A stretch of 64,000 nucleotides of DNA from Acidimicrobiales bacterium. GTDB taxonomy: Bacteria; Actinomycetota; Acidimicrobiia; Acidimicrobiales; Acidimicrobilacustridaceae. The stretch covers positions 1 through 64,000 of the forward strand of contig JAURMR010000004.1 in NCBI GenBank assembly GCA_030830565.1. Direction: 5' to 3'. Below, one piece after another: positions 60,158-64,000 of the stretch; the first letter of the stretch is position 1, and every line of letters starts with the position of its first letter. The notes under the pieces were generated by a model. It made no database searches. It was not told the DNA's origin and saw only the letters and a program-made list of their open reading frames with translations. A program made the translations under genes and the position numbers.

Positions 60158-61525
60158 ATGAGTGAGTACGACGAACCCCGATCCGCCAACCGCCCTGCTG
60201 GGGCCGGTCGGGTCCCTCCCCACAATCTCCAGGCGGAAGAGTCGCTTCTTGGCGCCATGCTGCTGTCCAAGGAAGCGGTGTCAATCGCGTCCGAAACGTT
60301 GTCGGCCGACAACTTCTACAAGCCGGCGCACGCACACATTTTCGATGCCATTACGTCGTTGTCTGCTGCGGGCGAACCGGCCGACCCGGTCACGGTGGCC
60401 GAAGAACTCAGCCGTGCTGGGTTACTCGAAGCCATTGGTGGACCCGCAACCCTCGTCACGCTGCAGGCAGCAACGCCAGCGGTGTCGAGTGCCTCGCGTT
60501 ATGCACGCATCATCGAAGAGCACGCCTTGTTGCGCCGCCTCATTGGTGTCGCTGGCGAAATCGCTGAAATGTCCTACAGCCTTCCTGAAGACGTCACCAA
60601 GACCGTCGACCAGGCCGAAACCATGGTGTTCGAAGTTGCACAGCGTCGCGCCACCGACACGCTTGCACCGTTGTCTGATCTTCTCGGTACCAACCTCGAC
60701 CATCTCGAAGACGTTGTCAGTCGTGGCGAATCCATCACCGGTATGCCCACGGGCTTTCTTGATCTCGACGAACTGCTCTCAGGCCTGCAGCCCAACGCGC
60801 TCTATGTGCTTGGCGCGCGCCCTTCAATGGGAAAGACCGCGCTCGCGCTTGGCATGGCCTGCAACGCGGCAATCGAATCGCATCGTCCCGTGTTGTTGTT
60901 CTCGCTCGAAATGGGCCAGCTTGAACTCACACAACGTTTGTTGTGTGCCGAGGCGCGCGTCGACTCACGCAAAGTGCGCACCGGCCAACTCACCGAATCT
61001 GACTGGGGCAAGATCGCACACGCAACCGGCCGTCTCGCCGATGCTCCTATCTGGATCGACGACAACCCCAATGTCACCATCATGGAAATCCGTTCGAAGG
61101 CGCGCCGCTTGCGCAGCCGCCTCGGCGATCTTGGTCTCATCGTGGTCGACTACTTGCAGCTCATGAGCGGTCGTTCCAACGCAGAAAACCGCCAGGTGGA
61201 AATCTCGGAAATCTCTCGAGGTCTCAAGATCCTCGCTCGTGAACTTGAGTGTCCTGTCGTTGCACTGTCGCAGCTTTCACGCCAACTCGAAATGCGGGCC
61301 GATAAGCGACCGATGCTGGCCGACCTTCGTGAATCTGGCGCTATCGAACAGGATGCCGACGTCGTCATGTTCATTTACCGAGACGACGTCTACAACCTCG
61401 ACTCACCTGATCGCGGTACCGCCGAGATCCTTATCAGTAAGCACCGAAATGGGCCTACGGGCATGGTGCGACTTGCCTTCCTCGATCACTACACAAAGTT
61501 CGCCAACATGGCCCGAGGCACCTGA
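60158..61525 (+). CDS. dnaB: Replicative DNA helicase DnaB
   Basis: VPPHNLQAEESLLGAMLLS, GARPSMGKTALALGMACNAA, VVDYLQLM, LADLRESGAIEQDADVVMFIYR; no intein. Confidence 0.98.
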   Translation: MSEYDEPRSANRPAGAGRVPPHNLQAEESLLGAMLLSKEAVSIASETLSADNFYKPAHAHIFDAITSLSAAGEPADPVTVAEELSRAGLLEAIGGPATLVTLQAATPAVSSASRYARIIEEHALLRRLIGVAGEIAEMSYSLPEDVTKTVDQAETMVFEVAQRRATDTLAPLSDLLGTNLDHLEDVVSRGESITGMPTGFLDLDELLSGLQPNALYVLGARPSMGKTALALGMACNAAIESHRPVLLFSLEMGQLELTQRLLCAEARVDSRKVRTGQLTESDWGKIAHATGRLADAPIWIDDNPNVTIMEIRSKARRLRSRLGDLGLIVVDYLQLMSGRSNAENRQVEISEISRGLKILARELECPVVALSQLSRQLEMRADKRPMLADLRESGAIEQDADVVMFIYRDDVYNLDSPDRGTAEILISKHRNGPTGMVRLAFLDHYTKFANMARGT

Positions 61526-61545: not shown

Positions 61546-61562
61546 TACTACACTCTGTCGTA
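61546..61562. promoter_or_regulatory. Candidate BlaI/CopY-type operator (TACTACACTCTGTCGTA)
   Basis: TACnACAnnnTGTnGTA perfect dyad overlapping the first base of the copC/copD start codon; BlaI-family gene lies at 63847. Confidence 0.65.
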
Positions 61563-63103
61563 TGTCGATGTTGGCTCATGTCGCAACGAGATCATCGTTC
61601 CGCCGGCTCGTTGTGGCATTTGGGTTGGGCCTTCTTGGCCTCATCCTCTGGTCGAGCCCTGCCGCAGCGCATGTCGACTTTCTCGGAAGCTCGCCGGCGA
61701 ATGTCTCAACGGTTCCGGGACCGGTTTCAGAGATCGTCCTTGAGTTTTCTGGAGCCGCGGAACCAATCGAGAGTGATTTCCGTATCGAGAACTCCTCAGG
61801 TGATTCACTTCCGATCGACTCTGTTGCAAATGACGGTGAAACCAAAGTGGTTGTGACGAGTGCGGCGCCACTTCCAACTGGCCGCACCAAAGTGTTGTGG
61901 GCCCTCCGTGGCGCTGATGGACACAAAATGTCTGGCTCCGTTGCGTTCACGGTGACGGCCGACGCAACGCCTACGCCCTCCACATCAGTTGCCGCGAACC
62001 AATCAACCACGACCGTGGTTCCATCAACCTCTCAAACGGAAAACGAAATCGAGAGTTCTGAAACGGCAACTGCTCCGATTTCGAAAACAACGAATGAAGA
62101 CTCGGGAGTAGCCGAAACGATTGGTGTCGTTGCACGCTGGATCGTGTACGCCTCAATCCTTCTCACCATTGGTGCGCTCGCGTATCTTCTTTGGGTTCAT
62201 CGGGGCACTCGAGCAGAAGGCCGACGCATCGTCTATTTCACTCGCAGAGCCTCGGTGCTTGTCATCCTCGCTTCCGTCGTTGAATGGTTTGCTCAACTTG
62301 CGCTTTGGGGATCTGGATCAGTGAGTGATCTCGTCAGCCCTTCGGCATGGAGTGAACTGCTCACATCAGGTTTCGCATTCGGCACGTTGCTCCGCCTTGT
62401 CGGAGCTGCGCTCGTCTTGAAATTTGTCGCTATGGAGGTCGTGCCCGATCAGTCGAACGAGCTTGCGCCTATTGCAGATCTCAACTGGATCGCAGAGCCT
62501 GACGACAACCGCTCGCTACTCGTTGATGAACGTCCACGATCCGCCACCCTCACCAGAGTGCGAGTGGAGTCGGGGCCACTCGCGATTCTCGGCGCACTTC
62601 TCCTGGTGATCTCTGAATCTTTCATCGGCCATACCGCCAGCGTTGAACCTCGAGCCCTGATGGCGGTGAGCGATGCGGTGCATCTGACTGCTGCCGGAAT
62701 TTGGGCCGCAGGGGCATGGCTGTTGGCGGCAACGCTGTGGCGTCGACACCGACGGGGCGAACCGGTTGATGCTGCTCTCCTGGCCACACGGTTTTCGCTC
62801 CTTGCGACGGTTTCATTGATTGCCGTCGCAGTATCGGGTGCGGTCTTGGCCTGGGCCATTCTTGAACAACTGTCGGCACTCTGGTCTTCAGAATTCGGTC
62901 GACTCCTTCTTGCCAAGACGTTTGTTGTCTTTGTCATCGGATGTTTCGGACTCCACAATCGACGCGTCGTGCTCCCAGCGCTTGTCTCTGGCGACGAGGG
63001 CTACGAGGAGAAATTTCGCAAGACCATTGCCATTGAGGCAGGACTCTTCGCTGTGGTTCTGCTCATCACGTCATTGCTCGTGATCGCCAACCCTTTGTCG
63101 TAA
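61562..63103 (+). CDS. CopC/CopD fusion copper resistance/import protein
   Basis: HVDFLGSSPANVSTVPGPVSEIVLEFSGAAEP (CopC-like) plus multi-TM CopD domain. Confidence 0.9.
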   Translation: MSMLAHVATRSSFRRLVVAFGLGLLGLILWSSPAAAHVDFLGSSPANVSTVPGPVSEIVLEFSGAAEPIESDFRIENSSGDSLPIDSVANDGETKVVVTSAAPLPTGRTKVLWALRGADGHKMSGSVAFTVTADATPTPSTSVAANQSTTTVVPSTSQTENEIESSETATAPISKTTNEDSGVAETIGVVARWIVYASILLTIGALAYLLWVHRGTRAEGRRIVYFTRRASVLVILASVVEWFAQLALWGSGSVSDLVSPSAWSELLTSGFAFGTLLRLVGAALVLKFVAMEVVPDQSNELAPIADLNWIAEPDDNRSLLVDERPRSATLTRVRVESGPLAILGALLLVISESFIGHTASVEPRALMAVSDAVHLTAAGIWAAGAWLLAATLWRRHRRGEPVDAALLATRFSLLATVSLIAVAVSGAVLAWAILEQLSALWSSEFGRLLLAKTFVVFVIGCFGLHNRRVVLPALVSGDEGYEEKFRKTIAIEAGLFAVVLLITSLLVIANPLS

Positions 63104-63173: not shown

Positions 63174-63803
63174 ATGAACTACCGCCGAACTCTCTCCGTA
63201 CTCTCTGCAACGTTCATCGCCGGCGCACTCGTCGTCTCGTGTTCATCCTCAGGCAGCAGCCATTCCTCGATGACGACGATGGCGGCGGCCACAATCCCCG
63301 CGACGGCAAATTTCAACGCTACCGACGTCGGTTTCGCCCAGGGAATGATTCCCCATCACGCGCAAGCGGTGGAAATGGCCGATATGGCGATCGCAACGAG
63401 CACGAACGCCGATGTTCTCGCCTTAGCCAAGCAAATTAAGTCCGCACAGAATCCAGAGATCGAAACGATGACTGGATGGTTGCAGGGATGGGGTCAAGCG
63501 GTTCCCTCAACGGCCTCGATGGCCGATGGCGGTCACGACATGACCAACATGAGCGGAATGATGATGGACGGAATGATGAGCGATGCCGATATGAAGCGTC
63601 TTGAATCGTCGACGGGGACAGCGTTCGATCGGCTGTGGCTCGAACTCATGATTCAGCATCACGAGGGAGCCGTTCGAATGGCACAGGACGAACTCGCAGA
63701 CGGAAAGAACCCTGATGCGAAGGCTCTCGCGCAAGCGATCATCACGAGTCAGCAGGCTGAAATCACCAAAATGAATGCGCTGTTGGCTGCGCTCCCTAGT
63801 TGA
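63174..63803 (+). CDS. DUF305 family lipoprotein
   Basis: Lipobox ALVVSC; GFAQGMIPHHAQAVEMADMAI...LMIQHHEGAVRMAQDEL. Confidence 0.92.
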   Translation: MNYRRTLSVLSATFIAGALVVSCSSSGSSHSSMTTMAAATIPATANFNATDVGFAQGMIPHHAQAVEMADMAIATSTNADVLALAKQIKSAQNPEIETMTGWLQGWGQAVPSTASMADGGHDMTNMSGMMMDGMMSDADMKRLESSTGTAFDRLWLELMIQHHEGAVRMAQDELADGKNPDAKALAQAIITSQQAEITKMNALLAALPS

Positions 63804-63846: not shown

Positions 63847-64000
63847 ATGAGCCGGCGGCCGCTGGGATCTCTGGAATCTGACATCCTTGATGTGCTTTGG
63901 CAGAGCTCGGAGCCGCTCACGCCGGCAGACGTCCTTGATCGCCTCGATACTGACCTTGCCTATACAACCGTCATGACGGTGTTGGGTCGACTCTGGCGTA
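63847..64000 (+). CDS. BlaI/MecI/CopY family transcriptional repressor, N-terminal part (truncated by window end)
   Basis: MSRRPLGSLESDILDVLWQSSEPLTPADVLDRLDTDLAYTTVMTVLGRLWR... Confidence 0.88.
   Translation, partial: MSRRPLGSLESDILDVLWQSSEPLTPADVLDRLDTDLAYTTVMTVLGRLWR

Follow-up and report, generated by a model that had tools for sequence, protein, structure and literature searches.

A putative BlaI operator overlapping the copCD start codon and a candidate protease-mediated copper switch in an Acidimicrobiales bacterium

A 17-bp dyad overlaps the start codon of a copCD fusion gene and very probably serves as operator for the BlaI-family repressor that this operon also encodes. The comparison of related sequences supports the linkage between operator and BlaI, the conservation at copCD promoters, the gene order and the type of protease encoded behind blaI. 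The gene content points to a copper response, and the whole statement, that this BlaI operator is combined with protease-mediated derepression of the operon by copper, is probably correct. The repressor family, the protease family and their use in copper control are each already known. Their combination with copCD and CopM-like genes, the 3-bp spacer and the overlap with the start codon were not found in the limited open-access literature searched.

The dyad and the copCD promoter

The window, which is the whole stretch of 64,000 nucleotides analysed, is the first part (bases 1-64000) of a contig of 79,393 bases in a 2.0 Mb assembly that is only 71% complete. The dyad TACTACACTCTGTCGTA, with the arms TACTACA and TGTCGTA on either side of a CTC spacer, lies at 61546-61562 (no strand assigned), and its final base is the A of the ATG at 61562, as the original prediction had placed it. 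It matches the pattern TACnACAnnnTGTnGTA with 0 mismatches. The dyad had been called perfect, which holds for the 12 fixed bases but not for the whole arms, which are complementary at 6 of 7 positions, with T and C unpaired at the two free positions. It is the sole site with up to two mismatches in the window, where 0.59 are expected by chance, and a genome scan of the kind proposed with the original prediction gave a single exact site in the assembly. Markov models of order 1-3 expect 0.0002-0.0004 exact matches in 64 kb and, when derived from the window, 0.006-0.013 genome-wide; the chance of an exact dyad within the 50 bp upstream of any one gene is about 3e-7 under such models.

Two orthologues in the same genus (G302, which is contig L074, and G299) encode copCD proteins about 65% identical to that of the window. 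The 22-nt block CTACTAC[A/G]CTCTGTCGTATGTC, which consists of the dyad and the ATG, agrees at 21 of 22 positions across the three sequences, compared with 25 of 118 ungapped positions outside the block. A start at ATG 61568, which had been raised as the possible true start, is unlikely and was rejected because this codon is missing from both orthologues, whereas ATG 61562 lies inside the conserved block and is kept. At two other copCD loci (L064 and L036), the final A of the dyad is again the A of an ATG.

A putative -10 element, TACACT (TANNNT; 61549..61554, forward strand), lies within the dyad and 7 nt upstream of ATG 61562, and TACGCT stands at this place in both orthologues. Leaderless actinobacterial promoters usually have a TANNNT box that ends 7 nt before the ATG. 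This suggests that the copCD transcript is leaderless, in line with a possibility raised originally. The 22-nt footprint and its overlap with the ATG support a mode of repression in which the -10 box, the transcription start and the start codon would all be covered. A sigma-70 consensus scan of the copCD promoter gave no match. A leaderless-type -10 box, TAGGCT, also lies 7 nt before blaI in the window; it is absent from the nearest relative, where a ribosome-site-like sequence stands instead. Within the window, no second operator with up to two mismatches precedes DUF305 or blaI, so autoregulation would hinge on read-through from copCD; relatives do have such sites.

The gene row, its repressor and its protease

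The genes are arranged in the order of the dnaB end, the dyad, copCD, DUF305, blaI and a protease gene, followed by an SRPBCC gene. The copCD fusion (61562..63103, forward strand, 513 aa) matches CopC (PF04234, 52 bits) and CopD (PF05425, 73 bits). The DUF305 gene (63174..63803, forward strand, 209 aa; PF03713, 181 bits) encodes a protein that passes the NCBIfam CopM model NF049983 with 103.6 bits against a cut-off of 90, and its product is predicted to be a CopM-family metallochaperone. The blaI gene (63847..64203, forward strand, 118 aa) starts behind DUF305 where it had been placed and runs past the window end at 64000. The question whether an M56-type gene follows beyond that point is answered by a gene for a BlaR1-like HExxH membrane protease (C9:64200-65081, forward strand, 293 aa), which shares an ATGA overlap with the blaI stop. 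The comparison of genomes upholds the predicted copCD-DUF305-blaI unit and adds the protease gene to it. Three genomes of the genus have the four-gene module between dnaB (60158-61525 in the window) and the SRPBCC gene (L002:7128-7610). Other genomes of the genus carry a different gene between dnaB and SRPBCC, and in G312, whose dnaB is practically identical, about 1.3 kb of unrelated sequence takes the place of the module. The position adjacent to dnaB is a variable slot.

BlaI has a winged-helix Penicillinase_R domain (PF03965, 80.3 bits against a cut-off of 22.6), and the assembly contains no other PF03965 match. Its structural relatives are M. tuberculosis BlaI (2g9w, E 1.5e-11) and MecI (1okr). 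The former (Rv1846c) is the nearest solved BlaI, and its LAYTTVM recognition region is nearly identical. Work on Rv1846c has dealt with its control of blaC and ATP synthase genes, not with copper genes. Its operator motif was reportedly described by Sala et al. in 2009, and a spacer-3 operator may already be known.

The protease carries the motif HENAH, and H161, E162, H165, E199 and D203 are invariant in 60 proteins. C71 and H79 lie in the loop between TM2 and TM3, and H281, H282, H289 and H292 in the C-terminal tail; many acidimicrobial relatives have a WC...H loop and a QxHH...H.C tail. No penicillin-binding or beta-lactam sensor domain was found in the protease, whose chain ends after the last helix. 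Pfam assigns it to M48 rather than M56. An AlphaFold2 model built with 60 homologues has a mean pLDDT of 91 and places HExxH between TM3 and the last TM helix. In the PDB it is matched best by structures of S. aureus BlaR1, with a probability of 0.99-1.00, weak E-values of 0.011-0.04 and modest TM-scores; the likeness is one of fold type, not close kinship. In BlaR1, sensing is the task of an extracellular C-terminal domain, which is coupled to the loop that joins helices 2 and 3 (PMC9834060). The system resembles BlaI/BlaR1 and MecI/MecR1 of S. aureus in its repressor family, its TACA/TGTA-type dyad and the predicted position of HExxH. However, it has a Cys/His tail and loop instead of a penicillin-binding sensor domain, a 3-bp spacer, and copper genes in place of beta-lactamase.

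Occurrence of the operator at BlaI loci

Enrichment at BlaI loci, genome linkage, promoter conservation and a base preference at a position left free by the search agree in favour of the predicted BlaI-family operator. In 1.69 Mb of sequence around BlaI genes, the spacer-3 dyad occurs at 21 exact and 59 one-mismatch sites; over the same 1.69 Mb, the reversed pattern gives 0 exact and 7 one-mismatch sites and a second control 0 and 0. Spacer 3 is the only spacing clearly enriched at 120 actinobacterial BlaI loci, a few of which overlap because some genomes sit in two collections. Among 298 genomes from the order, exact sites occur in 17 of the 56 that have BlaI and in 5 of the 242 without it (p=6e-10), and the reversed pattern shows no link to BlaI. 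Counted over entire genomes of the family, one-mismatch sites come close to background and are uninformative.

Loss of the site from orthologous copCD promoters, which the original prediction had named as contrary evidence, was sought and not found. At acidimicrobial BlaI loci, sites with up to two mismatches lie upstream of 9 of 12 copC genes (two controls, 0/12 each), 10 of 18 DUF305 genes (controls at most 2/18) and 14 of 43 blaI genes (controls 0/43). Thirty hand-chosen sites give the consensus C-TACKACA-N3-TGTMGTA-G for relatives. At position 4, which the search pattern leaves unconstrained, every site has G or T, and 72% have C as the flanking base. Spacer-3 dyads also precede blaI in Actinobacteria without copper genes or the loop Cys, and thus the dyad alone does not imply copper.

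Two side observations concern these counts. The five genomes with exact dyads and no detected BlaI (G036, G070, G106, G116 and G182) have several of their sites on short contigs, and BlaI may be absent from the assembly in these cases. In genome G006, 24 copies of the reversed control pattern were counted, compared with 0-5 in the other listed genomes; those in G006 are probably a repeat family.

The proposed copper switch and its alternatives

The BlaI-family regulator PetR of Synechocystis is destroyed by the copper-activated BlaR-type protease PetP (PMC7896320, PMC12292863, PMC13421787). Judged by these descriptions, PetR/PetP of Synechocystis sp. PCC 6803 and the present system share adjacent genes for a BlaI-family regulator and a BlaR-type protease that are tied to copper-related genes, and presumably a regulator that does not sense copper directly; they differ in that PetR/PetP switches plastocyanin and cytochrome c6, whereas copCD and a CopM-like gene would be switched here. 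PetR/PetP is the closest precedent. Because this precedent exists and the pair is joined to copper genes here, copper-driven derepression through the protease is, by analogy, the best reading and a fairly probable one. Without a signal, a BlaI dimer would bind the dyad and cover the -10 element, the transcription start and the start codon. The bound dimer would keep the presumably leaderless copCD-DUF305-blaI-protease operon off, including its own gene by way of read-through. A rise of copper outside the cytoplasmic membrane would be the signal, with excess rather than shortage as the cue. Copper would bind Cys and His residues on the outer face of the protease, in the TM2-TM3 loop and the C-terminal tail, and the protease, once switched on, would cleave BlaI. 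Upon loss of BlaI, the CopC/CopD and CopM-like proteins would be made. In other bacteria, CopCD fusions can function in uptake (YcnJ), a role that would fit induction by shortage.

The dyad may instead be a BlaI operator under a protease that senses a non-copper signal, such as cell-wall damage, thiol or redox stress, or another metal, the copper genes being part of a wider envelope response. This reading is less likely. In relatives, BlaI-type dyads also precede LGT (prolipoprotein diacylglyceryl transferase) genes (L040:7258-8190, L045:10053-10931, L059:3443-4621 and L067:7657-8541), and sites lie directly before DsbD_TM genes (L044 and L064) and rhodanese-domain genes (L035 and L038) as well as before sortase and L,D-transpeptidase genes. 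Copper genes lie within 5 kb of 35 of 42 proteases with the loop Cys and of 2 of 18 without it (p=2e-7 with descent ignored), an association that speaks for copper. On the tree, this link for Cys71 comes down to about 4 independent changes, most of them as expected, and is not significant, which again favours a non-copper signal. On the other hand, the operon contains neither a beta-lactam sensor domain nor a beta-lactamase, the DUF305 protein passes the CopM model, and the recurring neighbours are copper genes. Multicopper oxidase genes (L036 and L037) and a plastocyanin-like (cupredoxin) gene (L043) lie directly behind sites. Copper handling and envelope-protein maturation fit together as targets, and a thiol or envelope stress signal is possible.

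It is very unlikely that the palindrome arose by chance or serves another regulator, for example the CsoR-family protein encoded at L002:9409-9714 on contig C9 beyond the window. The distance from blaI to this downstream gene is about 3.2 kb, and the incompleteness of the assembly also leaves room for such a reading. However, the low chance expectation before a given gene, the conserved 22-nt footprint and the genome-wide link of exact sites to BlaI argue against it. Furthermore, the CsoR-family gene and an MBL-fold/rhodanese fusion gene (L002:7617-9347) are arranged back to back, which suggests persulfide (CstR-like) rather than copper sensing.

Direct sensing of copper by BlaI in the manner of CopY was implied by the original proposal to assay BlaI with and without Cu(I). 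The cop box of CopY/CopR is RNYKACANNTGTMRNY, and CopY is recognised by a CXC copper motif (PMC7253601). The present system shares with CopY/CopR the KACA/TGTM half-sites, the repressor superfamily and the copper target genes (PMC7253601). However, the gap between ACA and TGT is 3 bp instead of the 2 bp of CopY, and the 118 residues of BlaI contain no Cys and hence no C-terminal Cys-X-Cys motif. Release of BlaI from DNA by Cu(I) binding to the repressor itself has the slimmest chance of all and was rejected as unlikely because BlaI lacks cysteine and its gene is coupled to a protease gene, even though the target genes are copper genes and the CopY_TcrY model TIGR02698 is its best NCBIfam match, at 30.9 bits far below the cut-off of 121.95. 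The protease, with its Cys and His residues in the outer loop and tail, would be a better candidate for the copper sensor than BlaI.

Under copper-driven derepression through the protease, a broader proposal can be advanced tentatively. Many Acidimicrobiia, and perhaps other Actinobacteria, may control copper homeostasis by a BlaI repressor that is degraded by a BlaR1-like protease in which Cys71 and an HH...H tail replace the beta-lactam sensor domain, acting through a spacer-3 operator that extends into the leaderless start codon of copCD. If so, copper sensing by way of a protease, so far described for a single cyanobacterial pair, would reach a large and little-studied actinobacterial group. 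It would also supply a concrete metal site for how a BlaR1-type protease that is free of a sensor domain responds to a small ligand, and many genes annotated as penicillinase repressors in these genomes would be copper regulators, not antibiotic-resistance genes.

A second set of BlaI-protease pairs adjoins DUF305 in Lentzea, Amycolatopsis, Prauserella and Rhodococcus (L117, L142, L088, L103, L096, L105, L090, L131 and L119). No spacer-3 dyad lies near these loci. Their proteases have a CW...HG loop and a C-terminal Cys, and the pairs apparently combine the same partner genes with a different operator.
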